Positions 9,994 to 59,718 of a stretch of 64,000 nt of DNA are shown piece by piece (position 1 is the stretch's first letter; every line of letters starts with the position of its first letter). The position numbers were made by a program, and so were the translations under genes. This stretch comes from Eutreptiella sp. 'Long Island Sound 2002' (Eukaryota > Euglenozoa > Euglenophyceae > Eutreptiales > Eutreptiaceae), in the NCBI GenBank assembly GCA_964036045.1, contig OZ038381.1, positions 125,805,708-125,869,707 on the forward strand, in the 5' to 3' direction. A model generated the notes under the pieces. It ran no database searches and was not told the origin of the DNA. It saw nothing but the letters and a program-made list of their open reading frames with translations.

Positions 9994-10020
9994 TAACTTG
10001 TCCTTGAGGAATAATTTATC

Positions 10021-12555: not shown

Positions 12556-13195
12556 CTATACGCGACGATCTTCTCCACCGTACGTCTGGTTTTTTCCAGG
12601 GAGCCATGCCAAAACATGGGCCCCCACTCGTTCAAACCAGGCTGAGTCTCCTTGATGCCAATGCCTCCTACACTTCCTCAAAAGTGGGGCATCCCGGGAA
12701 GCGAAGACGTCCGTCTCGGGCGCTTCCGCTCCCAGCGTCTGGATCATCCTGGCATACACCTGCGGCGCCATTCCATACTCCGTGAGCTGAGCAACGCGGT
12801 CTCCTCTGGACTTGGCACCCACCGCTTGCACCGCTTGGACAATCCGATCCTCTTCCTCAGCATTCAATTGGGATGATCCGCATGCATAGTCCATGGACAG
12901 CCATGTAAGGCATTCATTATCCTCCCGGACCAGCGTTGCACGATGGGGAAGGGCTCCAATGGTGTTTCCCACCATGAAGTCATACCCCATGATCATATCC
13001 AAATCTGTAATGTCGGCCACATAGAAGTTCCCGGATAGAGTGCTTCTCTTCGCCAAATCAGGGCGGTTCAAGCGCTCATGCTCCCAGAATTCCATACTGA
13101 TAGTGGCCTCATGGGTGCCGCCACCCATAATCTCTCCATTGGCCACCTTCAGGCGTACCGGTCTACGGCCCGGCTGCAGGGATTCCTCTTTGAAC
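12556..13195 (-). pseudogene. Protease C-terminal half and DAM-like linker, copy A
   Basis: Continuation of the protease/pol frame after the 495-bp insertion: RPVRLKVANGEIMGGGTH, then NFYVADITDLDMIMGYDFMV, which is the second half of a retropepsin. It leads into a linker with ETDVFASRDAPLL that matches the copy B segment discussed in the findings. The frame is lost near 12620 (GDSAWFERVG against GDSAWHRHWG in copy B). Confidence 0.8.
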
Positions 13196-30500: not shown

Positions 30501-32841
30501 AGGACCGGCCCCCGCTGTGCCCCTTCCACCTGTTACCCCTGCTGACTTGCTCCTGATCAACGATTGCATCCCTCAAAGTCCAGGGTCCAAAATCCAAAAA
30601 TATAGAAAATGTAATCCTCCTTCAACCCTGAACAGCAACCAGATCCCACAAATACAGCAATAACCCGATTCACAATCCAATCCACACTGCGGGCTTCCCT
30701 TCAGCACACCGGTCGTCTCACGGTGGCGGGCATGTACAAGAATTGCACCAAAGAGGAAAGCCCTGAAATTGGCATATGAACACAAATAAAGCAAAGTTGG
30801 GGAAAGAGGTAACCATACACATTCACAGCCATGAACCCCTCATTCCCTGGACTCAAGACCTTCCCTTGACTCACCAACATATTGCCCTGACCCAAGTCAA
30901 ATGAGATGGCTGAATGCCATGTGTCACAGGTCACTAGACAAACCCCAAAAATGTGTCCACTCCCAAGACTCTAAATCCTAGCCCAAAAAAGGGGGGTGCC
31001 GTGTCATGGCCTAGAGTGGCACTCAGGACCATGCCCTACCCTCACATAAACTTGGTTGGACTTGGAGTCGAATTGGCTTAGAGATATGCCCCATGCGTTT
31101 GAACTCATAACATGCCAAAAAACTGCCAATTCACACCATATTGGCCATATATCAAATATACGCTCAAAACTGAAGTTACCACTTATCCGAAGGCTCAGAG
31201 TATGCATGGTATCGGAGTCTAGTCTTCATGGAGGATAGAAATCAAAGGTCAATGCCCATGTACATCCCCACTCTAACCTCGAAACCCCTTCGGATATGGG
31301 CGCCACGCACTGCCCAAGTCAACCCATGATCTTGAAACCAAATCTTGTAATCCTTCGTGCGCCAAGCCAAATGGAGTACGCGATCCGGCATATGGTGGTG
31401 TTCAACTCCAAAGCATATGCCAACAGATGAACAACATACCATGATTCGAATCCCGAAAGGCTTCTTGCTGTTTGCCGACCAGATAAGTACACAAAACGCA
31501 AAAATGAGCAAAAATTGAGCTCAAAAACATGAAAATATGTCCAAATACAAAGTTGTCATGATAGTATATCTCTGTGCTCACCCATGATATCCGCTCACGG
31601 TTCCATACACAAATGATTGAAAACATTTGCGAAAAATTCTTCCACTCAGATCCCCAATCAGGCACATGGAGATGCCTTCGCCACTCATATCTACATGACC
31701 CATGAAAATTCGGAGTGCACTCATGGATCTCTTTGCCAAACATACCATGAGCAATACATACGCGGTAGACTTAGTCTAGCGATTTGAATTCCACAATAGG
31801 GACATGGGCAAGGCCCTTGTCACGTGTGGCTCCCCATCTATTCGGCCACACGAAGATATATAACATGGGCGTGAGCATATCAAGACATATACTACCAATA
31901 TCACACATAGCCCTTAAAATTGGCTCCCACCATGGTACGCCATGCCCCCCCATGGTCATAACTTTGGGTTAAATGGACGTGGGAACCTAACGGAAGATGC
32001 TATGCAACCGCAAGACTCATGCGCCACACTCGAAGTCATAATATCAAGTCCAGATAGATGGTCAACAAGTTATAAACAAGTTTCTACCATGTTGACCATG
32101 ATCTTATGATACAAGGAGTGTGTATGACAATCTAAGGTGTGGGACCCTACATAAAATAAGTTGAGACTAAGGCGCTTGCAACAGAACCTTCATTATTCTC
32201 TTTCCTCACACTCGCGCGTAGATATGGCCCTTCAAAGTGGTCCCACGATTCACTTTTGTTTCCCTTATATCTCCAAGTCAAATGGGTGGCAAGTATGAGG
32301 GAAACCTGATTTGGGCATAGGGAAAGGAGTATGACCACTCGAAGAAGACCAAATCAAGTGCGGCAATGTCGAAGTCGAAAATCCGATTTCGACATCGCGC
32401 AAAATTCAGATTAAAATTTCGAGTGCATATTTAGAAAATTGCGGAAGCAACGAACCCTTTAATGATGAAATCTGACCCTTCGTCAGGGTTTCTGCCAAAA
32501 TATCTGGAAATAACAGTTAACCAATCGGTTACCGCAACATCGCGAGCCAAGTGACAGTCGCCGATACATTGACCATCAGAACGGAAGGCGGAAAAGTTAC
32601 GGAAACATTATGATAAAAAAACCCTGTTGATTCCTGATATTCTGATATATAAATCTCCGCTGGCGGTGCCTCGGTACTGAATATCGCCGCTCATAGCCGG
32701 AATGGCCAACCTATCACACTATCACATCGGGTTAGGTGAGGTGGATGGGGGAGTATGATATCAGCAAATGGCGGCTTGCCGGCACATAGATACACACCCC
32801 AAGTGACCCAAAAATGGCCACGGGGGTCCGAACCGGCTTCA
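30501..32841 (-). repeat. 3' LTR of gypsy copy B
   Basis: The minus strand begins TGAAGCCGGTTCGG at 32841, directly after the polypurine tract. Similarity to the 5' LTR runs to aggaccggcccc at 30501. Compared with 41265-41283, the terminal sequence is missing at the outer edge. Two sites resembling TATA boxes are shared with the other LTRs (near 31855 and 32645). Confidence 0.92.
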
Positions 32842-32856
32842 CCCCCCTTCTCAGAG
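32842..32856 (-). promoter_or_regulatory. Polypurine tract of copy B
   Basis: The minus strand reads ...CTCTGAGAAGGGGGG immediately before the 3' LTR. Same position and composition as in copy A. Confidence 0.85.
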
Positions 32857-33236
32857 CGTTGTTACCGCCCGGAAGTCATTGAAGAGAGGACGGGAGGACC
32901 CCAATGGGCTCCAAACCCCCTCCCCCATGTCCCAAGGACACATGGAGGCCCCACACACGTCGTAAGCGTCCCCCATGCCCCAAGAGAGGGGTGAGGACAC
33001 TGATAATCGGTGCCCTACGCCATATCCGGTCTCCTCTTGATCTACAACATGGACCAAGGGGATCAAAGATAGAAAAACGTCGTCGGTCGACCTAAATAAG
33101 TATACCACAATGAAATATATATGTGGAGATCGAGTGAAGGGGGTAGATGGCCAATCAAGGCCCAAAAATCCCCGGATGAACGCCCTCACCCGTCTCCCCA
33201 AGCACAAAAACAAACAAAAATGCCAAGGGGGATCCA

Positions 33237-35394
33237 TTACGGTGCTACAGCAGCAACCAAATGGACCAACACGTCCTTGACATGCAAGAGAATATTCTTT
33301 TTCTTCACATAGTCCATCCAGACCGTGGTATACCTCGGCACGAAACTGCTCGGAGGCTCCCACGAATCCCTGGATGCGGCGAATCCCTTCCAACGGACTT
33401 TATAAAGCCTACCCCCAGGCGTCCCCGGGTCCGGCTTGTCTGCCAGGATCTTCTCAGCGGTGAAGTCGTCGTCCTCACCCTTGTCGTCCGAGTCCACATC
33501 GCCGGCCGTGAACTCGAAGGTGACGGGACGTCCGCTGGGGTCCGGTGCTCGGAGACGAAGCTGGGTATGGTCGCGGTCCAGGATCCTGTTATCCCCCACA
33601 CGAACCGCAAACACATCCTGCCCGACCTTCCGCACGACTACCCCCGGCACATACCGAGATGCCTGCCGATGCCTGGACAGGACATCCTTGTGGTGCCGCT
33701 CCACCCCCACGGTGTCTTGGAGAGCATACTTCTGGACCTTTCCCTGTTTGAAATACTTGGCCCTCTTGTCATGCTCGTCCTGAAGTGCCTTGCACACTTT
33801 GGCTGCCGTGTCGTCCGCCTCAGCCATCATAGCGTTCGCATCCCGGGCCACTTTGCCACGGTTCAACCACGGGAGAGTGCGTGACACTCGATCCGTAGGA
33901 ACAGGATACGATGGGGCGACAGTCCAGTGGGTCCCGGAAGGTCGTGATACGCTTGGAGTACTCTCCACAGCGAATTATACCTATTCCGGCCCGGTTCGTC
34001 GATGTGCAGCTGGCGGAACTTCTCGAACATCTCCCGCCCGGCCACCTCAGCCCGGCCATCCGATTGGCTGTGGTACGCCACGGTCTTGGCGTGCCGAATA
34101 CCCATGTGCTTGCACATGGTCTTGAACCACGTCCCCACAAACTGACTGCCCCGATCGCTGCAGATGACAGCCGGGGCACATCAAAAATCGTCAGCCAATG
34201 CCTGATCATGGCATTAGCGACGGTCTTGGCCTGCAGCGGCACTCCATGCTTGTCCTTCTTGTCCTTCTTCTTGAACTTCTTGCCAGGGACCGCCACGATA
34301 TACCCACTGTGCCTATCCACCGCCAGGATGACACAGTCGTAGGTCTCTCCTTCCGAAGTGACCTCAGGCATGGCGAATACATCCATGGCCACGGACCGCA
34401 TAGGGGCCTCCGGTATAGCCGTGTACACCGGGTTGCCCGCTGTGGAGTGGTTGGGGCTCTTCGTGGCCCGACACACGGCGCAGTCGCTGCAGTACTTGTC
34501 CAGGATGGCGTAGTACCCCGGTGGGAACTTGAAGCGCCACTCCAGGTCCTGCTGCATCTTGTCCCGACCAGGATGCAAGAGCTGGGCGTTGTGCCAGTGG
34601 TCAATGAGCTCCTCCACTCGGTTCTCAGGGACCAATAGCTTGTCCTTGAGGAACAGCTTGTCCCCATCCTCGGTCAAGCCCTCGGGCCATTCGTCGTCTG
34701 ACGGGGCGCTCAAGGCATTCCAGTACTTGCTCCAGTGCTCGGATGCCGCATAGTCATCCGACCAGTCCTCTGTGAGCACCGACCTGACTAGCTCTACAGG
34801 GGCCAACATCCATTGCTCGAGGGTTTCCTCTCGAATAGCTTGGACGCGGGCGCCCTGGAACTTGGCCAGGTCCGTACGGTTTGCCATCACCACAAAGCAC
34901 TTGACCCCCTCTTGCTCCATGGCCTTCTCCATCTCGATGATGCGCTTGGCCTCCTCGGTCTCCTCGGCGTCCCCATGGCTGGATATGTCCATCCACGCCT
35001 TGCCCGCGGGGTAGGCCCATCGACTGAGGCAATCTGCCACAGTGTTGTCCTTCCCCGGGACGTATACGACGCTGAGGTCAAACTTGGCGAACGTCTCATG
35101 CCATCGGGCCCTCCTTGCCGCCGGTCCCGAGGGGGTGTCGACGTGCTCCTTGTGCCAGCTCTGCAAGGACTGATGGTCCGTGCAAACCGCCACCCGTTGC
35201 AATCCGATGTGGCCGGACCACTTCCTGAGCGCACAAACAATGGCGTACGTCTCCTTCTCCCTCGCGGTCCAGGTGCGGCGTTGGCCCTCGGCCAGGATTC
35301 GACTCCAAAACGCCACGGGTACGTGTGACCTGTCGTCCCGGATCTGCTCGATGACTGCCCGTACAGCATAGTCCGAGGCATCCGTCCGTAGCAC
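33237..35394 (-). pseudogene. RNase H, integrase and chromodomain, copy B
   Basis: The frame 35394-33820 begins at the first RNase H Asp (LRTDASDYAV, D5), then E48 (KETYAIV), D73 (CTDHQSLQSW) and D121 (VADCLSRWA). The integrase zinc site is H268/H274/C302/C305, and the first catalytic Asp is D338 (MDVFAMPE). A frameshift near residue 407 removes the second Asp from this frame. The frame at 34138-33863 continues with SDGRAEVAG (Glu), and 33968-33237 carries the C-terminal domain and an intact chromodomain (LYKVRWKGFAASRDSWEPPS, residues ~185-205 of that frame). Order and motifs match chromoviruses. Confidence 0.92.
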
Positions 35395-35397
35395 GAA

Positions 35398-36603
35398 TCA
35401 CTTGTCCGGGTCCACCAAGAAAGGTCCCAGCTGCCCCAGGAGTCGCTCCTTCAGGCGGCTGAACGCATCTTCGGCCTCAGGGGTCCAGGCAAGCTTCTTC
35501 TTGCTCCCCTTCCGGCCATCGAACTTGCCCACTTGCAGCATCTTGTGCAGCGGCCCCGACAGTTCTGCGTACATTCGGACATAGCCTGAATAGTAGTTGC
35601 AGAACCCCATGAAGGAGTTCGCAGATGGTCTGGGGCTTTTCCCAGTGGTACAGGGACGCCAGGTTCCCAGGCATGGGACGGCGTTGCCCGTGACCAACCA
35701 CGTGACCCGCGAACTCCACTTCCTTCACGAAGAGTGAGGCTTTGGTGGGCTTGCACACCATGTTGTGCTTGTCCAACTCGCTGAGCCCTCGGCGCAGATC
35801 CTTCTCATGCCAGTCGATGAGCTTGTCCCCAGTCATGTTCTCCGTGCGGGACCCGATGATGATGTCATCCACGAAGGGATCGGCACAGTCCCGGACAGAA
35901 CCGAGTAGGTCCTCCGTCATGCGCTGGAAAGCAGCGTTGCCATTCTTGGCGCCCATAGGCACCACTTTCCACTGCATGGGCCCCAGCGGCGTCCACATCG
36001 CTGTGCAAGGCCTGGAGTCCGGGTGTAGCGGCATCTGGTGATAACCGTATTTCAGGTCCAACACCGTGAAGATCCGCTTTTTCTGTTGTTTTCGGAGGAT
36101 GGAGTCGATCAGGGGAAGCGAGTACGAGTCGTGCTCGGTCTGCTCGTTCAAACCCCTGTAATCCACCACCAACCTCCACTCGCCCTTCTCTCTTTCTTGG
36201 GCACGATGGGGGCTGGGCTGGCCCACTCACTGTCAGAGGGTTCGATCCATCCTCGCTCAATGAACTCGGCCAACAACTTCTTCATGGCCTCGGCCCGATC
36301 GCCCTGAAGTTGGCACTCCCGATGACGATAGATCTTGGGGTTCGGCTTCAGCTTGATCCTCGCTGTGCCAAACCTCCCACGATCTGGAGGGTTCTCGTTG
36401 GCGACGCCACTGAATAGTTGCGGATAGGCATTGATCAGCCTCTCCTTCAGCTCGGCGACCTTCGGGTTCTCCTCGGCCTCTTCAGCCGCTTGCTTCGGTA
36501 TCCATACAACCGACCGCACTGCGGTGTAGGCCTCTTCTGGGTCCGAATCCGACTTCTCCTCGTCTGAATTGCCGTCGTCATCGTCGTGGGGCATGCTTCC
36601 CAC
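35398..36603 (-). pseudogene. Reverse transcriptase, copy B
   Basis: Three frames cover it: 36603-36148 (ERLINAYPQLFSGVANEN, then GWIEPSDSEWASPAPIVPKK), 36226-35477 (EWRLVVDYRGLNEQTEHDSY, FTVLDLKYGYHQMPLHP, MTEDLLGSVRD, catalytic PFVDDIIIGS) and 35697-35398 (FMGFCNYYSGYVRMYAELSG and the thumb, into the RNase H). Single-base shifts near 36200 and 35620 separate them. The active-site residues are present. RT copies element RNA into cDNA in virus-like particles. Confidence 0.9.
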
Positions 36604-37500
36604 CGATCATCTTCGAAAATTTGCGGCATCGGGCTGGTTCTTGTCGCTCTCGGCACCCATTCTTGGAAAATCCCATGTCGGCGGGTCGACCGAACCGGAC
36701 CATCGTATTGGTCCGCGATGTGATCCATGACCCTCGCCACGAACTCATCCTTCTCGTACTTGCCGGTGACCAACATCTTGTCATCCCACCAATGCGGAGA
36801 TGTGACCATGGCCCGCCTCTTCTTGGCTGCCACACGGTCGTGCATCCCCATTTGCATGTAGTTGACGACGTTGTCGATCTCGGCGTGGGACAGGACGTCA
36901 ATGCCATCGATTGGCTGATCCGTCCCCTCCTTGGGCTCAAACATAACCTTCATGGGCACCCCCTCCACCCTACGGATGAATGCTTCATCACCCGTGGGCT
37001 GGGCTTGCGCCCCATCCACCGGGAAAGCCTTGGTACCCCACGCTTGACCCGGGGAGGGCATTGATACACCCTTGGCGTCGATGAACAACTCCTCCTCTGG
37101 CCCGAATGACATCTCGTTCAGGGTGACGGAGTCCAGCGCCGACTTGAGACCCTCCAGCGGACATGGGGTGGATCCTCTGCCGTTTATGACCAGGATCCCC
37201 TTCGCCCTATCCGCGACGATCTTTTCCACCGTACGTCTGGTATTGTCCAGGGAGCCATGCGAATACATTGGCCCCCACTCCTTCAGACCCCAATGCCTGT
37301 GCCAGGCTGAGTCTCCTCGATGCCAATGCCTCCTACACTTCCGCAAAAGTGGGGCATCCCGGGAAGCGAAGACGTCCGTCTCGGGCGCTTCGGCTCCCAG
37401 CGTCTGGATCATCCTGGCATACACCTGCGGCGCCATTCCATACTCCGTGAGCTGAACTCCACGGTCTCCTCTGGACTTGGCACCCACAGCTTGCACCGCT
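36604..37500 (-). pseudogene. Protease-RT linker with DAM-like domain, copy B
   Basis: The 349-codon frame 37496-36447. Residues ~21-143 (about 37436-37068) read MAPQVYARMIQTLGAEAPET, DVFASRDAPLLRKCRRHWH, WGPMYSHGSLDNTRRTVEKI and VADRAKGILVING. This resembles the adenine-methyltransferase-like domain found after RT/RNase H in DIRS elements, where a fold of the form DxFAS...NPPWS...LVVP is seen. The NPPW catalytic motif is replaced by GPMY, so activity is not expected. The rest (SPHWWDDKMLVTGKYEKDEF) is conserved in copy A but unassigned. Confidence 0.55.
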
Positions 37501-38300
37501 TGGAATCATCTGATCCTCTTCCTCAGCATTCCATTGGGATGATCCGCATGCATAGTCCGTGGACAGCCATGTGAGGCAATCATCATCCTCCCGGACCAGC
37601 GTTGCACGATGGGGAAGGGCTGCAATGGCGTTTGCCACCATGAAGTCATAACCCATGATCATATCCAAATCTGTAATGTCGGCCACATAGAAGTTCCCGG
37701 ATAGAGTGATTCTCTTCACCTGATCAGGGCGGTTCAATTGCTCATGTTCCCAGAACTCCATACTGATGGTGGCCTCATGGGTGCCCCCACCCATGATCTC
37801 TCCGTTGGCGACCTTCAGGCGGACCGGTCTCCAGCTGGGCTGCAGGAGTGCCTCCTTGAACAACCCTCTCCGGACCAGGCTCACCTGGGCACCCGTATCC
37901 ACCAACACATCCACCACCTTCTCCTCTCGTCCGCACCGTACTCGCACTTTCAAGTGCAACTGCCGCTCGTCACCATCAGGCGTATGGACGACTCTCACGG
38001 CATGCAACTCTAGCACGTCCGGGTGCATCAGGACTTCAAGGGTATGGTCATGGATGGTGTAGATCTTTGGCTGGTCCTGCCCATCCACGGGGCTCTCCGT
38101 GGTCGCTCCTTCCTTCTTGCCATGCCCCGTACCAACATGTACTTCCCTTGGCAGGGCGCTCCAGGGGTTGGGAGTGGCGAGGATCAGTGGTTTTGGCTCT
38201 TCCAGAGCCTTCGTTGGCACCCGATGTGCCTCTGATTCCTCAGGGATTCCACTGATTTTCGGAGGAGAGACCTCCGAGGTCCCACTCCCGTGAGGGCTCT
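37333..38300 (-). pseudogene. Aspartic protease, copy B (uninterrupted)
   Basis: The frame 38220-37333 contains the retropepsin core: VVDVLVDTGAQVSLVRRGLF (DTGA active site), RPVRLKVANGEIMGGGTHEA, and NFYVADITDLDMIMGYDFMV, the second-strand motif. It is the intact counterpart of the copy A protease and shows the empty site for the 495-bp insertion, at the codons for LFKE near 37860. A frame change near 37500 breaks its link with the downstream linker. Confidence 0.9.
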
Positions 38301-41264: not shown

Positions 41265-43620
41265 TAAAGAAGGTCCCTACCAGGACCGGCCCCCGCTGTG
41301 CCCCTTCCACTTGTTACCCCTGCTGACTTGCTCCTGATCAACGAAACCATCCCTCATAGTCCAGAGTCCAAAATCCAAAAATATAGAAAACGTAATCCTC
41401 CTTCAACCCTGAACAGCAACCAGATCCCACAAATTCAGCAATAACCCGATTCACAATCCAATCCACACTGCGGGCTTCCGTTCAGCACACCGGTCGTCTC
41501 ACGGTGGCGGGCATGTAGAAGAATTGCACTAAAGAGGAAAGCCCTGAAATTGGCATATGAACACAAATAAAGCAAAGTTGGGAAAAGAGGTAAACATACA
41601 CATTCACAGCCAGTAACCCCTCATTCCCTGGACTCAGGACCTTCCCTTGACTCACCAACATATTGCCCTGAACCAAGTCAAATGAGATTGCTGAATGCCA
41701 TGTGTCACAAGTCACTACACAAACCCCAAATATGTGTCCACTCCCAAGCCTCTAAATCCTAGCCCAATAAGGGAGGTGGCGTGTCATGGCATAGGGTGGC
41801 ACTCAGGACCATGCCCTACCCTGACAAAACCTTGGTTGGACTTGGAGTCGAATGGGCTTAGAGATATGCCCCATGCGTTTGAACTCATAACATGCCAAAA
41901 AACTGCCAATTCACACCATATTAGCCGTATATCAAACATACGCTCAAAACTGAAGTTACCACTTATCCGAAGGCTCAAAGTATGCATGGAATCGAAGTCT
42001 AGTATTCATGGAGGATAGAGACCAAGGGTCAATGCCCATGTACATTCCCACCTTACCCTCAAAATCCCTTCGGATATGGGCGCCACGCACTGCCCAAGTC
42101 AACCCATGATCTTGAGACCAAATCTTGTAATCCTTCGTGCGCCAAGCCAAATGGAGTACGCGATCCGGCTATGGTGGTGTTCAACTCCAAGGCATATGCC
42201 AACATATGAACAACATACCATGGCTCGACTCTCAATAGGCTTCTTGCTGTTTGCCGACCAGGTAAGTACACAAAACGCAAAAATGAGCAACAATTGAGGT
42301 CAAAAAAATGAAAATATGTCCAAATACAAAGTTGTCATGATAGTATATCTCTATGCTCACCCATGATATCCGCTCATATTTCAATACACAAATGATTGGA
42401 ACCATTTGCCAACAATTCCCCCACTTGGATCCCCAATCAGGCGCATGAAGATGCCTTCGCCACTCATATCTACATGCCCCATGAAAATGGGAGTGCACTC
42501 ATGGATCTCTTTGCCAAACATACCATGAGCAATACATACGCGGTAGACTTAGTCTAGCGCTTTGAATTCCACAACCCGGACATGGGCAAGACCCCCGTCA
42601 CGTGTGGCTCCCCATCTCTTCGGCCACACGAAGATATATAACATTGGCGTGAGCATATCAAGACATATACTACCAATATCATATATAGCCCTTAAAATTG
42701 GCTCCCACCATGGTATGCCATGCCCCTCCATGGTCATAACTTTGGATTAAATGGACGTGGGAACCTAAGAAAAGATGCTATGCAACCGGGAGACTTATGC
42801 GCTACACTCTAAAGTCATAATATCGAGTCCAGACACATGGTCAAAAAGTTTGGGACAAGTTTCTACCATGTTGATCATGATCCTATGATACAACGGGTGT
42901 GTATGACGACCTAAGGTGTTGGACCCTACCAAGGATATGTGGAGACTAAGGCGCTTGCAACACAACCTTTCTTATTCTCTTTCCTCACACTCGCGCGTAG
43001 ATATGGCCCTTCAAAGTGGTCCCACGATTCACTTTTGTTTCCCTTATATTTCCAAGTCAAATGGGTGGCAAGTATGAGGGAAACCTGATTTGGGCATAGG
43101 GAAAGGAGTATGACCACTCGAAGAAGACCAAATCAAGTGCGGCGATGTCGAAGTCGAAAATCAGATTTCGACATCGCGGAAAATTCAGATTAAAATTTCG
43201 AGTGCATATTTAGAAAATTGCGGAAGCAACGAACCCTTTACTGATGAAATCTGACCCTTCATCGGGGTTTCCGCCAAAATATCTGGAAATAACAGTTAAC
43301 CAATCGGTTACCGCAACATCGCGAGCCAACTGACAGTCGCCGATACATTGACCATCAGAACGGAAGGCGGAAAAATTACGGAAACATTATGATAAAAAAC
43401 CCCTGTTGATTCCTGATATTCTGATATATAAATCTCAGCTGGCGGCGCCTCGGTACTGAATATGGCCGCTCATAGCCGGAATGGCCAACCCATCACACTA
43501 TCACATCGGGTTAGGTCAGGTGGATGGGAGAGTATGATATCAGCCAATGGCGGCTTGCCGGCACATAGATACACACCCCAAGTGACCCAACGTCTGCCAC
43601 GGGGGTCCGAACCGGCTTCA
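41265..43620 (-). repeat. 5' LTR of gypsy copy B
   Basis: 2356 bp, starting TGAAGCCGG at 43620 on the minus strand. No ORF inside it is supported. A conserved TTATATATC box on the minus strand lies near 42636 and another (TTTATATATC) near 43425; which one drives the element is not decided by sequence. Confidence 0.92.
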
Positions 43621-45514: not shown

Positions 45515-46497
45515 TTTTGTTTTTGAATTGTACAGCCACTTTAATGTCCGGACAGGGACACAGCCCTCAATCTAAGTGATGTGTATAGACAAAAGTGCTT
45601 GGCTCTCCCTAGCACTATGTGAGGGTTGTAGCCATGGAGGAACCTTGGAACTCGCTCTGTCATGGATGGGTAGGAATGTAGAGAACTAGGTTGCCCTGGC
45701 ATGCGCCTGTGTGGGTGCCTGGTTGGTTGCACATAGAGCTGGCGGCTTGACAGAATGAAATGAGGATCAAGGGGGGATGGAGGAGTTATGGTGTGAAACG
45801 TGGTGAGACGTGAAACGTGGACGAAATCAGCCGAGGCTTACTCAAGTGTTGGAACAAATCGGAAGTGCTGAGAGGTGTGCAGGAAGAGGGGGGACGGGGG
45901 GGGGGTCTGGATGTGGCTCTGAGAACTGAGTGATGCCTGTGGTGGCCTTACCGTAGCAATGGAGCGGTCGCCGCCTCCATGATTGACCGGCGGGAGACGT
46001 GTGTAATTCGCAGAAGGCAGGAGCCTGCAGAGATGACCAAGTGCCCGGCGGTGGGGACTACTTGATGGGTTAGGGACTGGCAAGCCAACTTCAGCATTCA
46101 AGGGACTGGAACGAGGCCCTCAGGGTACATGATCAATCTGTCGGCATGCAGCGTTAGGACAAACGCTGTTTGTGAGTGGGCTCGGTGCACCTGAGTGCTG
46201 CATACGTTTGGTCTAGGTACCACAGGATTTCCAGGGACGGCTCGCGGGGTTCCGGTATCCAGCACCAGAAATAGTAGTAACCAAAACCTTCAAGTTCATA
46301 CCAACAGTGAATGCCGAGGTACCACATGACAGCAATGGACGGGGAGAAAGGCTGTGAATTGGATGATTGACTGGAAGGGGCAGGGGCCTCGCTATTTTGG
46401 ACGGGATTCACTGTGTGTTTGGCCGAGAATAAACCGAATGCTGTGGGGGGATGGGGCAAGCGATGGCGGGGGGGCGAAATAGACTCTGGCGTTGAAC
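45515..46497 (-). other. LINE 3' untranslated region
   Basis: About 980 bp between the end of the RNase H ORF and the A-rich 3' tail. It contains no supported coding region. A poly-C run on the minus strand lies near 45890-45905. Confidence 0.6.
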
Positions 46498-48099
46498 TCA
46501 CGGATAGGGGCGGCTCGCCCAGAGGCAGGGGGGGGGCTGGAGCTCGGAAGAAATCAGTAATCGTCGGTTGGAGCTGTCAGCACCGGGGGGTTGGGGGGGT
46601 GCCACCGGTTTAGGGGCGTAGGTGTCACTACGAGTTTTGCGTGCTGGAGGGTCTTCGGTGTCCCGGCTGCTTTTTGTGGGTGGTTGTTTGGGACGCATAG
46701 GCGTTTTGCTTTTGTGGGTGCGTGGTTTTTTTGAGGGGGGGAGTTGGACTGAGTCTGGCAGGCGGTCTGATGGCAGGAGATAGGTGTACTCGCCGTGAGC
46801 CTGTGGGGTGTGTGACGTGCTGTAGGTGCTGTGTGGTTTGCCCCAGGTGTTGGCACCTTGGGGGGGGGGGGGCGGAAGGGGGGGGGGATCTTCGGCTAGG
46901 CAAGTGAGTGCTTTGGACAGAGCGTCTTTCAGCTGTCGCTGGCGCTGGGGGAGTGCATTTTTGAAAGCCAAAACGCGTTGGGGTTTTGTTTCGCCATTGG
47001 TGGGTGTAACCATGGCTTCGTACAGGATTGAGGGCACCAACAATTTGACGAAATTTCGTTTGTCCCCTTGGTGGGAGCACTGGGCCCACCAGATGCTGCC
47101 TACCTGGTTGAAGGGGGGAGGCCACGCATGTATCAGGCTTTGCACAATGTGGTCAGCGCTGGGGCAATGAGACACCAAGAAGGCTGCATCGAGGGGGTGT
47201 GACTGTGAGCATTTGTGGCAAATTCGGGGAGTCAGATCGTTGTGGAATGCATATGTAAGAAAATTCATGTTGCCTGATGACCATTTGAAGCAGAGTCCGG
47301 AGAACCACGATGAGTGATTGTAGAAGAAGAAACTGGACGGCACGTGGATGTTGTAGTGGTGGTGACGGGGGATGAGGGCCCTCGATACTGAGGTGGTCAG
47401 GCGATGGCAGACGGGCAACCTACCGAAGCATACAGTTCCCAGGGGGGGTGGAGGTAGAAACTCAGGAGAGGATGATGAGCTGTATGCAATCCACTTGGAG
47501 AAGAGATCCGAACATTCATTCCCCTCAAATCCTGCATGTCCTTTGATCCATGCAAATTGCGTTGTTAGAAATATGGGCATTTGAGCTTGGAGAGAGGAGT
47601 AAGCCTTAACCCATTTTTGAATGTTCTTAACTGCATCAACTTGTAAAGCCTTAACCCATGTGCCATGCGATGAGCTTGATGCCATCATGTATGTGCAAAT
47701 CACTTGTTCGTTATCTCCAAGAATAATGCACTGCATGGGTTGGTTTAGGGAGGATACCCATCGAAGAAACATAATGCCGGCCCAGTACTCAGATCCCTCA
47801 GAGGAATGATAGGGAGATGGGAGGCACAGAACTAGGATTGTACCGTTGGGTTTGTAGATGGTGGCAGCAGAGCCGAAACCCCCTTGCCCTGCTGAACCAT
47901 CCAGGTACACCAAGATTGTTTCGGAGGAGGCCTCTTGCAGAAGTTGGGATGCTCTGTTGCAGTTCCACGCTTTGAGGTCTTCACATCGTAGGAAGTGGGG
48001 GGGTAAACTGTGGACTTGGTACATGTATCCCATTGGCGAAGCTTGGAGCAGAACCCCGTTCAAGGGGGGGGGGGTTGTCACGTAAGGGAGGGCATACAT
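46498..48099 (-). CDS. LINE ORF2 C-terminal part: RNase H, Cys/His motif, Pro-rich tail
   Basis: 533-codon open frame. An RNase H domain at residues ~62-200 keeps the catalytic set: D67 (LVYLDGSAGQGGFG), E104 (SSEGSEYWAG), D129 (IILGDNEQV), H188 (WIKGHAGFEGNE) and D198. A Cys/His cluster follows (RICHKCSQSHPLDAAFLVSH then C), common in LINE C-termini. The last ~150 residues are Pro/Thr/Lys-rich. The start shown is only where this frame opens; the domain is the C-terminus of the RT polyprotein, with a frame change near 48100. It is the best-preserved part of the LINE. Confidence 0.88.
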   Translation of the reverse strand: MYALPYVTTPPPLNGVLLQASPMGYMYQVHSLPPHFLRCEDLKAWNCNRASQLLQEASSETILVYLDGSAGQGGFGSAATIYKPNGTILVLCLPSPYHSSEGSEYWAGIMFLRWVSSLNQPMQCIILGDNEQVICTYMMASSSSHGTWVKALQVDAVKNIQKWVKAYSSLQAQMPIFLTTQFAWIKGHAGFEGNECSDLFSKWIAYSSSSSPEFLPPPPLGTVCFGRLPVCHRLTTSVSRALIPRHHHYNIHVPSSFFFYNHSSWFSGLCFKWSSGNMNFLTYAFHNDLTPRICHKCSQSHPLDAAFLVSHCPSADHIVQSLIHAWPPPFNQVGSIWWAQCSHQGDKRNFVKLLVPSILYEAMVTPTNGETKPQRVLAFKNALPQRQRQLKDALSKALTCLAEDPPPLPPPPPQGANTWGKPHSTYSTSHTPQAHGEYTYLLPSDRLPDSVQLPPSKKPRTHKSKTPMRPKQPPTKSSRDTEDPPARKTRSDTYAPKPVAPPQPPGADSSNRRLLISSELQPPPCLWASRPYP

Positions 48100-49406
48100 T
48101 GTAGGGCGGGATTAAGAGAAAGTGGTTCCCGAGAATGTTGGTGGGTGCAGCTATGACCGGGGGGTGGATGGTGTAGACTTTTTCGGAACCCCCGAGGTTG
48201 AAGGTTGTGTCATCCCCTGGGAAGTAGATGGATGCTTGGTCGCAGGAGGTATCAGTCACGATGCCTCTGTGGATGCCAAGGTCTGTGTTTTGGTGGCGTT
48301 GTTTGTTCCCCCACTTAGTAACTCTGTTGTTGGAGTAAGTGGTGACACAAACATAGGCCTGTTCGCGTTTTCTCGAGTGGGTGGGGTGGGGTGTTGATTT
48401 CAGAACTTGTGGCGTTGAATCTTAGGTGGAGACTGTGACAGGCGTCGCTGATCAGCTTAAGGACCATCGAACTTTCCTCGTTGAGTGCTTCTTGCCGAAA
48501 AAGTTGGTTGGTTTCGTCCGGGCCCTCGTTGTTCAAGTAACGGATGGCCGCATTGACGGTAGAGATGTTTAGGCAGTGTTGGAAGTGGCGCAAGTCCAGT
48601 CCTCCGTGGGGTCTGGAAGTGTATTTGTCTTTGTTAGACACCAGCCTGGAGATGCGGTTGCGCTTCTCTGGATCACGGTCAATGGTAACGTTTTTTCAAA
48701 TGATGTTTTGCAGGGAGCGAAGCTGTGATTGATCGAGTGGGTGTGCCATGAGGCGATGTTGCAGGGTGGGGATGAGCTGGAGGTTCACCAGTCGGATATA
48801 TTCAGAACGGTTGAAGTTGAGTGGATGTAAGAAAGTGAAAAAAGACGTGATTTCGGATTTAGCCAGTTCATATGTGAGGGTGGGGTCGCGATCCGTAAAC
48901 AGATAGACACCGAGGTATTTGTATACCTTCCGGGGGGCGAGGGTTTTTGGGTCGATGGTTGACAACCTTTTTCCAGAGGGTGCTGTGATCGTCGTTTGAG
49001 GGGCCTTTCCCATGCTGTGGAGTTCTGTTTTGCTTAGGTTGATGTCTAGGCCCCATGCTCGACCCTTGGAGTCGTAGAAAGACAGCATCTCTTTGAATTT
49101 CACGGCTCGGGAGTCCGGCTTGATGCGGGAGGCTGTGGTGTTGTGGTATTGAGCGCTTAGGTTTATTTTTTGACCGTACCAAGGGGGGTATTTTTGATGA
49201 GGGGGGTAAATGAGTGGCACCAATCGGACGATTTCTTGCAGTGCATCGTTGAACGTGCTGATCTCAGACTTGTTGAGCTTTCTGAAAACACGTTTGGTAA
49301 TTGTAGATGAGTGGAAGGGGGTGGGGGGGACAGAAAGGGTGCACGAGGAGGGATGGTGATCAGTAGCTCGGTTCTCTGAGTGAATACTTGCATCCAAAAG
49401 GGACAT
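48100..49406 (-). pseudogene. LINE endonuclease end and internally deleted RT
   Basis: The frame 49406-48696 starts with the endonuclease C-terminus (SENRATDHHPSS, the SDHHP-type motif), then an RT N-terminal stretch (FNDALQEIVRLVPLIYP). It jumps directly to a segment normally located after the catalytic motif (WGLDINLSKTELHSMGK, then YKYLGVYLF). No FxDD motif is present, so several hundred bases of RT palm appear deleted near 49150. The thumb/connection continues at 48641-48315 (GGLDLRHFQHCLNISTVNAA). Confidence 0.82.
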
Positions 49407-50335
49407 CTTCTCTAGTGAGGCCGGGGAAATGAAAATGTAGTCTAGTCTGGACGAACTGGTGCGGTGTCCTTGTGGATACCTGGTGAACTCGCGTGTTGTA
49501 GGGTTAGCCAGGCGGTAAGTGTCGCCTAGTAGGGGTGGGGTGGCAGTGGCTGAGTTGTCTGATCCATGGCCAATGATTGTCAGACAGGAGCCCCTGGCTG
49601 TCCAGAGCGGGATGAATCAGACAGTTGAAGTCACCTCCCAACAGGAAGCTTGGGAATTGCTTGAGGAAAGGGCGTAAGCTGGTTTCCACTTTCCTTCTCC
49701 ATACCTCGCCTGCAGGCGCGTACACAGAGGCAACTAGGAGAGGTGGTGCACGAGGCAGGGTGAGGAGGGCAGCTGTAATGAGTCCATCTTTGTCTGGATT
49801 ATCGCAAGCAGTGACGAACTGACTAAACTGGACCCGTGTTCGTGGTGGGGGGATAAGTTTGAGAAAATCACAGCTCTGTGACCTTTTTGGTTGTAGATGT
49901 GGGGCAGGAGGACTTTTTTGCTGAGTTCTTGAAGGAAACAAATGTCGACGCCTTGCTTGAAGTGTTGCAAAAGAAGGGGGGTCGGAGGCTTCTTTTCTGT
50001 AGTGTGGATGACGGCACGGATGGTGTGGATTAGGCTTTTTGGTGATTACTTTGCCGAGGCATAGCCTTTTTCTCATTTTGGTTGTCACAGGGGGGGGGGG
50101 TTCTTGGGTTTGAGGGTGGCTCGATTCGAGAAGTGTTTGAAGTATGTGTTGGACGTGCGGCAACCCTCGAGGGGGTGGTAGGTTCAAGGTCGGTCGCCGT
50201 GGGGTGTGTGAGATCTGGGGGTGAGGGAGGAGAAGGGAAAACAGGCACGGTGTTCATGTGGGACTCGACAAGGGTCGAGGCAGACGGGGCTGCTATGCCA
50301 GCCCTAATGAGCACGTCCTTCAGACTTTGAACCAT
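49407..50335 (-). pseudogene. LINE ORF2 N-terminus: apurinic-type endonuclease
   Basis: An ATG at 50335 overlaps the end of the AlkB ORF by about 32 nt and starts a Pro/Thr-rich leader (MVQSLKDVLIRAGIAAPSAS). After a frame change the endonuclease appears: GVDICFLQELSKK (catalytic Glu region) near 49940, VASVYAPAGEVWRRK, SFLLGGDFNCLIHP (Asp/Asn pair) near 49630, and SRLDYIFIS near 49440. The fold is the EEP/APE type that nicks target DNA for target-primed reverse transcription. At least two frameshifts break it. Confidence 0.85.
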
Positions 50336-51172
50336 GGCATTCGCAATGGCGCAATATCATGGCGTATTGGAGAACTTGTTGCGTGTATTGGCCATTTCTT
50401 TCATCCATCGTAGTTTTGGGAATTGCATGCAAGTATGACCAGCGGGCTTCCCCTCGCAAACATGTAAGCGAACCGGAGTCCATCCAGTGGACGTAGTGAT
50501 GTCCCCCTTTCACATGGCGAAGGTGCATGGGGACAGGACATCTGAGGTTCAAGTCTAGCACATATTTGCCCAACGCTTCGGCATCCACATGATCTCCTAT
50601 GCCTGAGCCAGGCTCGTAACGGGCTACAGTCAGTTGGTTGGGGCATTGATAGGAATGCCGTGGGAGGACAGTTGAAGCAGAATTTTTTCAATGTAAGGTT
50701 CGAACTCGGGTGGTAGGTCTTCCAACTGTGTGACATCGGTGCCATTAGCTCCCATTCCATAGCCAAAGTGCTTCAGATGTTGATGCATAGAGGGGTCCCA
50801 ATTCGGTTGGAGGTGATCAAATATATTAATGAGGCTGTCTTCCTCCTCAGCGCTGAGGAGTTCTGGAAAGTAGTCGAGGCCGTCGGGGGCTTTGCTAGAG
50901 GCGAAATGTGCAGGGGGCATTTTGTAGGGAGCTTGGGGTTTCACTTCAGGGGGTGGGTTGTGGTCGACTTGGATGGTGTCAATTTTCTCGGCTTTCTCTT
51001 CTGGCGGGGGGTCTTGATCTATATTGATAGCTTCGGAGACGGGGTTCACCTCGGGCGCAGGATCATGGTCGACCACGATGGTGTCGGTTTACTCGGTTTT
51101 CTCTTCCGGTGAGGGGTCTTGATCTATATTGATAACTTCGGCGAAATTGCGGTCTTTTTGGGAGTCTGACAT
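50304..51172 (-). pseudogene. AlkB-like 2OG-Fe(II) dioxygenase ORF inside the LINE
   Basis: The ATG at 51172 (MSDSQKDRNFAEV) opens about 290 codons. Two 35-residue repeats come first (VINIDQDPSPEEK and AINIDQDPPPEEK), with one TAA in the first copy. The domain follows: YFPELLSAEEEDSLINIFDH, HLKHFGYGM, then after a one-base frameshift near 50640 RYEPGSGIGDHVDAEA, which holds the HxD iron site (H at 50591-50589, D at 50585-50583). Next come CLRGEARWSYLHAI with the distal His (50429-50427), and QYAMILRH. The usual RxSxTxR motif has Gln in place of its first Arg, as CGA to CAA decay would give. AlkB proteins oxidatively demethylate DNA or RNA bases. Cellular ALKBH-like, by motif only. Confidence 0.82.
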
Positions 51173-51416
51173 CGCTTTGTTCCGAATTTCTTATTTTGTG
51201 TTTGGGCTCTATGGGTTGTGGGTGTGTGCTTAGAGTATGGGAGTGAGGAGTTGTTGGCCATCCCTGTCCCCTTGGGTCTGAGGATGTAATCCCTGGAGAA
51301 GGCCATGGGTGGTCGTTGCTTGGCGGTGGCGGACCGGATGTGGTTGGACGGAGAGTGCTTGATGTTGACTCGGAGTTGTCGGGTGCCTTAGCTCCTGAAG
51401 GAGGGAAGAGGGGTGG

Positions 51417-53429
51417 TTAGGGAGGGGAGGCCACGGAGGTGTCAGCGAATGTTGGTGTCTCAGGCGTGTTGTCTTCCGTGTTCCATTGGGATATTTTGTC
51501 ACGCGGGGTCGGAGGTGGTGCGTCGAGTTTGTCTTGGAGTTCCATCAGTTGGGTGACAAAGGCTCCGGCTCCAAGGGTTCCTCCACATTGGAAAATGGTG
51601 ATGAGGTCGTTGGGGTGTTTTTCGTCGGTGTGCGGTTTGAGGATTGTTTCCCGAGAGACATGGTCCGGTTCGAGGCAACGTGCGGATATTCCCCGGTAGC
51701 TGAAGCCATGTGCCAATAGAGCCGAGTCCCTCTTTTGGGGTTTGAGTTGGTATAGAGTGGCACGTTAGATGACGTGATCACCTTGTCAATTGAGTGAAAG
51801 GGACCTAGCAAGCTGATAACAATTTTGACAAAATGAAGAGATTCCGTCATTGGTGCTGCAAGTTCAACTAAACATGGGTCACTTGGCGTGCGGACTGGGT
51901 CTTTTGGAAGAGGCCATTTGTCTTGAGGAAGAGCCGTAGACGCAAGGGAGGCTGCTTGATGTTTTTCATTCCAAGAGGGAACCATGGCGCCCGCCAGTCC
52001 TTTGAATAACAAGAATTCATCGTCACGGAACAATCTCGTTGCCAGAGTTTGAAGCAGGGTTTTTTGAGGTTCGCATGGCACCGCGGAGTAGTCTAGAGTA
52101 ACTAGCAGACTCGTTGGGTCTTTTATGAGAGCTCCTTCGTACATGCAGTAGCGTGGGTGGGCCGCATAATTCCGCCTTGTGATGGACCAAATATCGCCCG
52201 CTTTGTCATCGGGGTTGCAAGATTTGCAATCACGAGAGGGTACAACCTGGATTGTTCGTAGGCTCTGGAGATCTTCGATGCGCATGATGAAAAAGTCTCC
52301 TTTGGCAAACGCCGGGGAGTCGACCACCGCGTTGCGAAGGTAGGTGTCGTAGGGTGGTGGGAGATCCCAATCATACCTCACAAAACCTTCAAGAGGAGAG
52401 CGGAAGTTGCTGATTCCTCCTAGTGGGTAGAAAGCGTTGGACGAGTTGATGCTAGCCGCGTCACCCAAACCGCCGAAGGCTCGATTGAAACCCGTTTGCA
52501 TGATTCTATTGTCCGTGGGCGAGAAGTTTCCCCCGGATCTTTTGGTTGAGCAGCTTGGATTCTTCATAGAAAGCGCGTAGGGTCTTGATGGAAACGTCAA
52601 TCCGAACCTTGGAGTTGACCGTGTTTGGTGGTTTGTTGATGCGGGCGTGTTGGAAGGCTTCAGAGAGGAATGGTTCGTAGAGGTTGACATGAAAGAACTG
52701 AACTTCATCCGTTTTGCTTTTTCGGCTATCAAGCCATAAGGCCACAACGGGGAGAGATTGTCCGTTTGTTTCGACCAAATTGCGTGTGTTGTTCCTTACC
52801 AAAGGAAATATGTTTTTGGTCTCCTTGAAAACTTGAATCTCGCCAATGGAATCTTTTATTTGAACGACAGAACCATTCATTGTGGGGAGGTAGGACTTGG
52901 ATGTGACCTCCCTATCGTAGCTCGTAGTAATGAACAATCCCCGGGTTGGAGTGCTTGGCGAAGCAAAGCGGCTTTTCAAAAATTCTACGTAGTGTTTGGA
53001 AGTTTTCACCATCGGTGGCAACCCCGCTTTGTCCATGGGAGGTGCAAGGTAGAACGCAACCTTAGGCATGTGCTCATCTTTGTGCATGAACAAGTCATGG
53101 GCGAGCGATAGGTAGGTGTGTTCGGTTTGTTTGTTGATGTCGATGTTGATGAAGGCGTTGGCGAAGTCGATGCCTCTTAGATCTCGGTGAGACGGATGTC
53201 TATTGTAGAGGAATTGGCGTATGTTGGAGTGTGTAATGAAGAGTTTTGAGTCAAACATGCGAGTACCTTCTTCGTAAGTGCCGAATCTGACGTAGTCATT
53301 TTCCCAGGATGTTTTTTGCGTAGCAAAGTGTTGAGCGGCACCATAAGTGAGGCCTTTTGGGATTGGAAAAGGAGACGGCGGAGGGATGTTTGGCACTTTG
53401 TTTTTTGAACCGAGACCAAGGAACGACAT
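51417..53429 (-). pseudogene. LINE ORF1 (no recognised domain)
   Basis: Start set at 53429 (MSFLGLGSKNKVPNIPP), because the open frame above it is LINE leader and transposon end. The protein reads through 52506 (LTYGAAQHFATQKTSWENDY, IDFANAFINIDINK, SYDREVTSKSYLPTMNG), changes frame near 52520 into FNRAFGGLGDAASINSSNAF and WSITRRNYAAHPRYCMYEGA, and changes again near 51720 to ITIFQCGGTLGAGAFVTQLM, ending with a TAA at 51417. Roughly 650 residues in total. I see no RRM or zinc knuckle of known ORF1 types. ORF1 proteins normally bind element RNA. Beyond the stop the same frame stays open and Pro-rich until the AlkB start. Confidence 0.65.
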
Positions 53430-53636
53430 CTTGTGCGGTGAACGGTGAATGCTCAAAGTTCGGGAATGGGATGCCAAAGCGTAGGAAATGACGGTAAACA
53501 CGGAGTTTGTCCAATATAAAGATGGCGGAGATGACGGTAACCTCAAAGGAAATGACAGTAGATTCGAAGAGATTTGAAAAGCAGCCCAGAACTTGAACAG
53601 CCCGGGATTTTTGCAAATCACCGAATAGCCTGGACT

Positions 53637-54297: not shown

Positions 54298-55089
54298 TCA
54301 CCATGGGAACCCCAGGTCCAGGAGTTCAGTGCGCATCGGAGCGGGAAGGCGGTGCCACGCGATAGATGTATACGCCACGATGGCATACCTTTCACCCTCC
54401 CATCGCTCCGGCCCATGCGTACGCCACGCATTGAAAATCACCCCCTTTCGTGCATCCACAACAACCCCTTGCACAATTTGACGCCCACATTGCATCCATG
54501 CTTGACGCTGCGCCCCCCCCTCCCCCCCACCACCCATCCACGCCGTAGTAAAGAAACCACCACCACGGAAATCACCCACCGCCACCACCCCACTCAACGC
54601 GGAGTCATCCCTTGGATGTTTGTGTACATCCATGGGTGCACATCCGTTGCCCCACACGATGGAAATTGCGGTGTAACTGAAGGACGGTAAACAAACCGTG
54701 AGGAAATTATTTACAAGGCGCACAACATGTGCATCATCATGTGTCCTCTTAGACATGCCTACGTGTGTAAAAGTCGGAAACTTCCTTGTTGCTCCCCATA
54801 GGATCCGGCGGTACTCTCCTATATGTTTCTTCTTGTGGAGCTTCCCCCTTGGATGTTTGTGTACATCCATGGGTGCACATCCGTTGCCCCACACGATGGA
54901 AATTGCGGTGTAACTGAGGGACGGTAAACAAACCGTGAGGAAATTATTCACAAGGCGCACAACATGTGCATCATCATGTGTCCTCTTAGACATGCCCACG
55001 TGTGTAAACGTCGGAAACTTCCTTGTTGCTCCCCATAGGATCCGGCGGTACTCTCCTATATGTTTCTTCTTGTGGAGCCATCCCTTCAA
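54298..55089 (-). CDS. Transposon ORF with in-frame 79-residue duplication
   Basis: 263-codon frame. It contains two nearly identical 79-residue units (KKKHIGEYRRILWGATRKFP to PMDVHKHPR) encoded by a 237-bp tandem duplication, 54610-54846 and 54847-55083. Because 237 is a multiple of 3 the frame survives. The C-terminal part (VVDARKGVIFNAWRTHGPER) is unique. It lies inside the transposon, downstream of the other minus-strand exons. No family recognised; it could be a terminal exon or non-coding DNA that happens to be open. Confidence 0.4.
   Translation of the reverse strand: MKGWLHKKKHIGEYRRILWGATRKFPTFTHVGMSKRTHDDAHVVRLVNNFLTVCLPSLSYTAISIVWGNGCAPMDVHKHPRGKLHKKKHIGEYRRILWGATRKFPTFTHVGMSKRTHDDAHVVRLVNNFLTVCLPSFSYTAISIVWGNGCAPMDVHKHPRDDSALSGVVAVGDFRGGGFFTTAWMGGGGEGGAQRQAWMQCGRQIVQGVVVDARKGVIFNAWRTHGPERWEGERYAIVAYTSIAWHRLPAPMRTELLDLGFPW
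54610..55083. repeat. 237-bp tandem duplication
   Basis: Two units in direct orientation, starting CCTTGGATGTTTGTG at ~54610 and ~54847, differing at only a few positions. Recent compared with the rest of the element. Confidence 0.92.
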
Positions 55090-57951: not shown

Positions 57952-59344
57952 TCATTCTCCACCCGCACTCATACGTTCCCACCGTGGTAGCTCTTTTGCC
58001 AGAAAGATCCTTTCGTGCGCTTGTTTTAGCATGCGCTTATCACGAGCTACACGCCCACCGGGGCCACCGCCACGCCCACCTGAGCATAAGAAGTGGTCTT
58101 TTAATATATAGTTTAGTGATTCTACTATATCCCCACTAAACATTCCCGCCCCCCATGGGTAAATATTTTTCAGAACCTCCGTAGCCTCTCTTCTAAGCCA
58201 CAAAAGGTAAGGTGACCGCTTATGCGGACAAATTAATTTCTGAAATCGACGTGCCACACGTTTACACTTTGAAAGGGCCGCGGCCTCGTAGCACCATGAT
58301 TGCATGGCCGTCAAAAGGTTTGCCATTTCTTGTACAACAGATATATACTTTGGAGGCAACTTCATGGTCTTACCTATTATTGTCCAGTTAGCGAGGAGAC
58401 GCCATGTCTCCTCACCGTCCGGGCTTGCCTTACCTTTGAGACTAATATTAGTCTTAGATTCATTCAACACGGTTTGCACGCGTGCACGGACAAGAGGCGG
58501 CAAACGTTTGCAAAACGCGCGAATGAAGTGTGTAAGGTAGTCGCCAAGTCGGATCACCAAGTGCAAAATGCACATCACAATGAACCGTGTGCGGTCATCC
58601 ACGCGGAGCATTGGTTTTGAAGTGCACCCTTTGGCCGTAGTGCAATCCAAACCTTTATCGTACAAAGCGCGGAATTTTCCATCAAGGTGCGTTGTGCGCC
58701 GCACCTTAGTGTTCATCCATCGTTCACGCCTACTACACCATGTGGAAAAAGAGTAGATGCTTCCAATGGCATAGTAAGGCGACAATCCTAAAAGTAGACG
58801 CAACCATGGAGAGTCTCCACCCAACATGATTCGTGCACGATAATAAACATTATTCATTTGGATGTATCCACTATCAATGATAGTTTGGATGTGTTGCAAC
58901 GTGGCACAAAATAAGACACGCATTGCTTCGTCGTCATGTTCAGATGTCAATGCGACATCCAATATCCAATTATATTGAAGAGTGCGGGCCTTTTCCATGT
59001 GATTGGCAAAGCCAATCGCAATTTGCACCCATGGGCGTGAGCCACATGGGAACCCGTCGCCTCTAATTATGATGACGAATAATTGCTCGCCATCGATCAT
59101 TGGAAAGTCCATGGACTCCATGAGCTCCCTTTGTGTTGCGACATAATTAAAGAAATGCGGTAAGTCCCATCGTACACCAACTTTGCCATTGTGAAGAGTG
59201 GTTTCCAATTTTTGCGCCTTACCCAATCGTTGCCATTCACGGTGCATACACTTGAAAGATGGAAATGGGTGCACCCAATGAACATCCAACTTTTCTTGGG
59301 CAGCTTTTGTTCGCCGGTTGGCCCAAGATATTAGATTCTTGTAC
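57952..59344 (-). CDS. Transposase candidate (DDE/RNase H-like), exon 2
   Basis: The open frame extends to 59457, but a consensus acceptor (CTCAAATTTAG) places the exon start at 59344 (residue ~39 of the open frame). Candidate catalytic acids, numbered in the open frame: D134 in IIRGDGFPCGSRPWVQIAIG, D215 in IMLGGDSPWLRLLLGL and E446 in GDIVESLNYILKDH. Between the second D and E is a long helical region (CILHLVIRLGDYLTHFIRAF), as in insertion-domain transposases. The C-terminus is Gly/Arg-rich (GGRGGGPGG). The frame is uninterrupted over more than 450 residues, unlike most others here. No named superfamily could be assigned. Confidence 0.65.
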
Positions 59345-59718
59345 CTAAATTTGAGGCATGTTAATTCGAACAAAGTGACGCGCACAACGTGAACGTTGGT
59401 GCACAACGTGAGCTTTGGTTGAAATCGTTCAACTTGTTCAACCGGGCAGTTGAACATGACTTTAACAAATGTTCAATTTGTTGTTTTCATGCAAAAACAC
59501 TTGATGGTAGCATGTAAATGGGGCCACAATTGCATGTGGAAGAAGACATATACATGATAGTTCTATGAAACCTGGGTAGGCACTCTATGTTGCACAAACA
59601 TGAGTCGCATTTGTTTCATATGTGTTCAACCGCACACTTGAACGCATCTCGCATACGGTTGAACACTCCTTGCATACATGCAACGCACCATGGTATGCAT
59701 GTAGGACATGTAGAGCAC
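59345..59718 (-). other. Predicted transposase intron with GTTGAAC at both ends
   Basis: Donor AATAG then GTGCTC at 59718 and acceptor AAATTTAG at 59345, 374 nt. Joining restores the codon AGG and gives MPKNR-YKNLIS in one frame. GTTGAAC/GTTCAAC occur at 59625 and 59657 near the donor side, and at 59427, 59436 and 59450 near the acceptor side. Confidence 0.55.

Follow-up and report, generated by a model that had tools for sequence, protein, structure and literature searches.

The window, i.e., the whole stretch of 64,000 nucleotides of Eutreptiella DNA that was analysed, contains on its minus strand a damaged copy of a LINE retrotransposon, in which a dioxygenase domain of the AlkB family is predicted at the end of ORF1. 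The features of this copy are distributed as follows:

45521-53636, minus strand: LINE copy, 5'-truncated and with broken frames; its 3' end reads CAATTCAAAA and is followed by an A-rich tail (blastn and reading of the ends)
50328-53429, minus strand: ORF1 region, with several frameshifts and stops in the window copy, co-linear with ORF1 (945-4046) of copy L034
51089-51091, minus strand: in-frame TAA stop of the window copy, upstream of the AlkB domain
50331-50917, minus strand: AlkB / 2OG-Fe(II) dioxygenase domain, equal to ORF1 residues 838-1033 (PF13532 and ALKBH8 matches)
50625-50645, minus strand: 1-nt frameshift of the window copy, near 50632, dividing the AlkB domain
50583-50591, minus strand: HxD iron-binding motif (H-V-D)
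50427-50429, minus strand: codon of the distal iron-binding His (WSYLHAI)
50349-50369, minus strand: R(YAMIL)R motif, the first Arg being Gln in the window copy
50328-50335, minus strand: ORF2 start overlapping the end of ORF1, ATGGTTCA in the window copy and ATGGTTAA in other copies
49370-50042, minus strand: endonuclease region of ORF2, APE type (PF03372 in L034)
49093-49094, minus strand: junction of a 1149-nt deletion that removed most of the reverse transcriptase, active site included
47497-47919, minus strand: RNase H domain of ORF2 (PF00075, E 3e-6, 27.9 bits for a cut-off of 25.8)

Elsewhere in the window, a 233-bp tandem duplication (54609-54841 and 54846-55078, 98% identical) occurs about 1 kb from the 5' end of the LINE copy. 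Long repeats located at 6081-13195, 30728-37861, 41282-43620 and 17372-19199, which are 72-94% alike and contain frames that look Gypsy-like by eye, are probably LTR retrotransposons, and an open frame of 506 residues (57955-59472, minus strand) perhaps corresponds to another mobile-element protein.

The AlkB assignment was proposed by a first-pass annotation of the sequence, on the basis of the ordered signatures HLKHFGYGM, RYEPGSGIGDHVD and WSYLHAI. All three were found in place, the His residue of WSYLHAI lying 52 residues after the Asp of the HxD motif, and they are completed by the R(YAMIL)R motif, which we take to be the equivalent of the 2OG-binding R..R of AlkB. The profile search suggested by the same annotation gave, for the second piece of the divided domain (50307-50642, minus strand), a match to PF13532 (E 4e-9, 37.4 bits, cut-off 31.2), the first piece of the window copy giving no AlkB match by itself in this search. 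Among solved proteins, those matched when the two pieces are read through as one are ALKBH8 (3thp, E 4.4e-11) and ALKBH6 (7vjs, E 3.2e-7), and the predicted AlkB relationship of the window LINE goes beyond chance. With respect to other members of the family, both the protein P0001 (43.5 bits) and ORF1 of L034 (38.7 bits) exceed the PF13532 cut-off and the protein P0021 (29.3 bits) falls just under it; a match at E<=1 was obtained for 11 members out of 21, several of the others being fragments. A search of five proteins against NCBIfam gave no match. Since the two AlphaFold models reached a pLDDT of only 37.4 and 36.7, respectively, the fold assignment relies exclusively on sequence profiles. 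The best match among solved proteins, the dioxygenase domain of ALKBH8 (PDB code 3thp), extends over the dioxygenase core (query residues 30-192), and the low similarity is confined to this core. Cellular ALKBH8 combines an RRM, an AlkB domain and a methyltransferase domain. Neither an RRM nor a methyltransferase was matched in ORF1 of L034, which gave only PF13532 and a weak PRIMA1 match (E 0.08), and the LINE domain was accordingly rejected as an ALKBH8 orthologue.

The first-pass annotation regarded the AlkB segment as a separate ORF carried by the LINE between ORF1 and the endonuclease, starting with its own ATG at 51172. The LINE does carry it, though as the C-terminal domain of ORF1, and the ATG at 51172 is internal to a frame that is read without interruption from ORF1 into AlkB in better preserved copies. 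Thus, in L031 and L034, ORF1 is uninterrupted between 945 and 4046 (1033 codons and the stop), and AlkB corresponds to residues 838-1033, i.e., approximately the last 196 residues. The same unbroken fusion occurs in P0021, a protein of 605 amino acids from a cluster of 106 members, which was recovered together with P0022 and P0023, covering only earlier parts of ORF1, as the three proteins found by a search with whole ORF1 (7998 scored candidates). In a database of 5.8 billion proteins, 20 matches were obtained from 192 candidates, on contigs of 0.35-4.4 Mb and including P0008 from the window itself; five of these proteins (P0007, P0012 and P0018-P0020) extend upstream in frame into ORF1 sequence. 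In addition, seven loci possess open frames of 1111-1289 amino acids, devoid of any internal stop and matched to the end of the AlkB domain. This upstream extension of the frame in other proteins and loci rules out that AlkB forms a separate ORF with a start codon of its own. The overlap of about 32 nucleotides previously noticed between the AlkB frame and ORF2 is real in the window copy and peculiar to it, because the stop of ORF1 is mutated there; in seven out of eight other copies compared at this junction the overlap is of 8 nucleotides, ATGGTTAA, and the eighth has an altered ORF2 ATG.

Downstream of this junction, ORF2 of L034 contains an APE-type endonuclease (PF03372, E 1.2e-8) and a reverse transcriptase (PF00078, E 4.7e-33), and ORF2 of L032 a reverse transcriptase (E 1.1e-24), with an endonuclease under its cut-off. 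A protein search with ORF2 gave 615 matches, the best of which, among the 120 listed, are unnamed, and those named by species (Xenopus, carp) are much weaker. Outside AlkB, no convincing Pfam match was found for ORF1 in profile searches of the window pieces, P0021 and L034. Upstream of AlkB, ORF1 of L034 displays an HTD motif (KPHTDEKHPND), within a stretch kept in several copies, which recalls a second HxD and has no Pfam match. As predicted from these domains, the element is a high-copy euglenid LINE with an APE-type endonuclease, a reverse transcriptase and an RNase H, and its ORF1 protein has an AlkB-family Fe(II)/2-oxoglutarate dioxygenase at the C-terminus.

The window copy shares 88-92% identity with the four longer copies L031-L034 (blastn). 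It is dead owing to the in-frame stop, the 1-nt frameshift, the loss of about 1.15 kb of the reverse transcriptase and, within the R(5)R motif, the replacement of Arg by Gln, and is unable to make an AlkB enzyme. Taken alone, such a broken copy would pass for an assembly artefact, or for a single dead LINE that had captured a host AlkB gene in a one-off event. The genome as a whole (2.28 Gb in 2205 contigs) speaks against this reading. A DNA probe made of the AlkB segment gave 124 candidates, 40 of which were scored, so that the counts are lower bounds; these 40 matches are 90-100% identical and 38 of them cover at least bases 1-866 of the 869. A protein probe from a diverged member yielded at least 132 matches, some of them pieces of one copy, from 131 scored out of 7303 candidates, distributed on many chromosomes. 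The copies were assigned to the subfamilies A (that of the window copy), A2 (L045-L048) and B (L035-L044), and the predicted ORF1-AlkB fusion is present in all three. ORF1 sequence upstream and ORF2 downstream accompany AlkB in the four A2 loci; in subfamily B, ORF2 follows in all ten loci, with only a short match in L039, and ORF1 sequence precedes in nine, L043 having none within its locus.

Since the B and A2 loci had been picked for having AlkB, ORF1 DNA located outside the AlkB segment was also used as a probe (123 candidates, 40 scored). According to the first-pass annotation, other copies lacking AlkB would point to a one-off capture. AlkB was listed downstream on the same strand in 39 of the 40 matches (38 of 39 without the window copy), at a distance of 0.58-1.01 kb in 38 cases and of 3.8 kb in one, and the remaining match had no AlkB listed nearby. 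When cut out as loci, 12 out of 12 of these matches carried AlkB where it was expected, in three cases with its first part only. The domain thus keeps its position across other copies and across subfamilies, and the predicted AlkB domain is a fixed part of the LINE family. The genome-wide matches and the result of the ORF1 probe refute the one-off capture, which is also opposed by the purifying selection on AlkB between subfamilies described below and retains a practically negligible likelihood. The distances between copies measured on AlkB and on the endonuclease are correlated (r 0.79; 42 copies, 820 pairs), as expected under common descent.

Selection was estimated from pairwise Nei-Gojobori comparisons between copies of the subfamilies A (4 of the 30 retrieved), A2 (4) and B (10), which represent few and non-independent lineages. 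A dN/dS ratio well below 1, for which the first-pass annotation had proposed to test, was observed for AlkB between A and A2, with a median omega of 0.26 and a maximum of 0.39 (16 pairs). The A-A2 values were 0.22 for the endonuclease, 0.19 for the reverse transcriptase (8 pairs), 0.23 for the middle of ORF1 and 0.56 for the linker. Within subfamilies, the AlkB omega amounts to 0.57 for A (6 pairs), 0.86 for A2 (6 pairs) and 0.40 for B (45 pairs), and the mutations at this level are mostly posterior to insertion. Synonymous sites are saturated between A and B (pS 0.77, pN 0.215). These comparisons indicate that the AlkB part is under purifying selection between the subfamilies A and A2. Among the 30 A copies, the variants common to at least three copies comprise 13 non-synonymous for 15 synonymous changes, versus 158 for 76 among singletons (p 0.035); those common to exactly two copies (38 for 14) show no non-synonymous deficit.

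The catalytic residues were followed in 44 distinct copies (48 loci, four of which were duplicates). All five, i.e., the HxD...H triad and the R(5)R pair, occur in 32 copies; the AlkB domain is unbroken in 21 copies, and both unbroken and equipped with the five residues in 19. Each iron- or co-substrate-binding residue is retained in 39-43 of the 44 copies. In the other 12 copies one catalytic residue is lost (the first Arg five times, the second Arg three times, the first His twice, the Asp and the distal His once each), which could suggest that the AlkB fold has been kept to bind nucleic acids or to play a structural role in the ORF1 protein, catalysis being irrelevant. This reading seems quite improbable, taking into account that the losses look like the scattered decay of dead copies, and that, when A+A2 are compared with B, the majority residue changes at 49 of 196 columns and at none of the five catalytic positions, an agreement which is weak evidence alone, since no change at five positions is a fairly frequent outcome of chance when 75% of the columns agree. 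The majority fraction is 0.945 for the catalytic columns versus 0.879 for the others, 67% of which are kept as well as the worst catalytic column, and such a slightly better keeping proves little by itself in a decaying set.

Most copies of the family that were read at their 5' start begin with a spliced leader. The 26-nt leader known from E. gracilis (PMC6242988) forms the 5' start of all four long copies L031-L034, two of them with one change each. It was also found at the 5' start of 15 out of 20 further copies, several with changes, and was absent from five, so that 19 out of 24 copies carry it; these 24 came from 29 non-window loci, five being left out for want of a match reaching the upstream end. 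Two of the 19, L049 and L055, share the same flank and are probably one insertion that has been duplicated. When the leader alone was shuffled as a control, the score never exceeded 13. That copies start with a spliced leader indicates that a trans-spliced mRNA served as the template. Target-site duplications of 13-19 bp were identified in seven of the nine copies, out of 18 examined, whose 3' end was captured; of the other two, one has an imperfect duplication and one has none.

A C directly precedes the leader in 18 of 19 copies; one position further upstream, T is found in 13 copies, A in 4 and C in 1. Among the eight copies whose duplication is clean or imperfect, the bases left outside this duplication are GTC in two, TC in two, AAGTC in one and C in one; one copy has none and one is ambiguous. 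Such extra bases ([G]TC or C) recur in L031-L034 and L049-L068, mostly outside the target-site duplication, and are possibly a trace of the copying of cap-proximal bases. The Eutreptiella leader has been reported as ACACUUUCUG... (PMC3621762), so that the C preceding the leader may be templated. A spliced-leader RNA gene starting with ACACTTTC would make the first-position T of most insertions a misreading footprint; a gene starting with TCACTTTC would mean that these bases are templated. It is conceivable, though decidedly doubtful, that AlkB clears methyl groups blocking reverse transcription from the spliced-leader-capped mRNA, so that the cDNA would reach the cap and the leader be re-inserted, the pre-leader bases representing the footprint of the copying or miscopying of modified cap-proximal bases. 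The cap 4 of trypanosomes bears base methyls, and cap methylation has been proposed to be reversible there (PMC11417388). The spliced leaders of Euglena bring a trimethylguanosine cap, according to a review (PMC3388326), which makes a cap-4-type substrate (m6,6A, m3U) or a cap-specific role only speculative.

The best explanation for these features, to which we attribute a probability of about 60%, is an AlkB demethylase tethered to the ORF1 protein and acting on the RNA or cDNA of the element itself. The element RNA would be a spliced-leader-capped bicistronic mRNA, from which the ORF1 protein would be translated first and ORF2 by termination-reinitiation at ATGGTTAA. Assuming that it binds RNA, the ORF1 protein would then coat its own RNA, and the AlkB domain would remove N-methyl groups, either damage-type m1A/m3C/m3U or marks placed by the host, from this RNA or from the nascent cDNA. 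This would let reverse transcription proceed as far as the 5' end, allow the RNP to escape methylation-dependent control, or both. An activity directed towards host molecules, erasing the m6A of mRNA, tRNA marks or the 6mA of DNA and thereby weakening silencing or translation control, looks unlikely. It finds some basis in ALKBH8 as the closest solved relative, the human enzyme modifying the wobble uridine of tRNA, but the fusion to ORF1 favours a tethered role, LINE ORF1 proteins usually working in cis on the RNA of the element. Cellular RNA is also raised as a possible target in a paper on orchid Gypsy elements (PMC9289625). The same paper reports that Ty3/Gypsy elements of Phalaenopsis harbour an ALKBH5-like 2-ODD ORF with an in vitro RNA demethylation activity, which renders the tethered, self-directed role of the LINE domain plausible without proving it.

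The orchid elements resemble the LINE family as retrotransposons with a fixed AlkB-family domain kept through subfamily divergence, but differ from it as plant LTR elements with an ALKBH5-like domain in a separate ORF, whereas the euglenid non-LTR family has an ORF1-fused domain whose nearest solved relative is ALKBH8. The AlkB domains of plant viruses sit in replicase polyproteins, and the trypanosomatid L1Tc/ingi elements show a similar order of reverse transcriptase, RNase H and zinc-binding regions. Plant RNA viruses with AlkB domains (Alphaflexi-, Betaflexi- and Closteroviridae, as cited in PMC9289625) are, like the LINE, RNA-copying genetic elements. L1Tc/ingi are also euglenozoan APE-type LINEs, and luciferase mRNAs from mutated constructs of Pr77, the L1Tc promoter, were devoid of the spliced leader (PMC4748587); the present family has the leader within the inserted DNA and possesses AlkB. 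A dozen AlkB homologues are mentioned in a Diplonema genome paper (PMC10161547). No earlier AlkB-bearing LINE was found in the literature searched, a non-exhaustive set that does not prove prior absence, and the only AlkB-bearing retrotransposon encountered in it was the orchid LTR element (PMC9289625). A LINE with a selected AlkB domain in its ORF1 protein would thus represent, besides the orchid LTR elements, a further class of retroelements bringing their own demethylase, and would provide a natural setting for testing if retrotransposons are restrained by RNA methylation. The leader at the 5' ends also shows the way in which a LINE moves in a trans-splicing organism, and marks complete insertions.

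Apart from the LINE family, genes for chlorophyll-binding proteins were observed in the same genome as tandem polyprotein units, at G000:C9:43682069-43694992 and similar loci, with frames of up to 6122 residues (C23). By their sequence, the spliced leader and these genes point to Euglena, probably E. gracilis, rather than to a fungal or another algal host; long polyprotein frames of this type are typical of Euglena.
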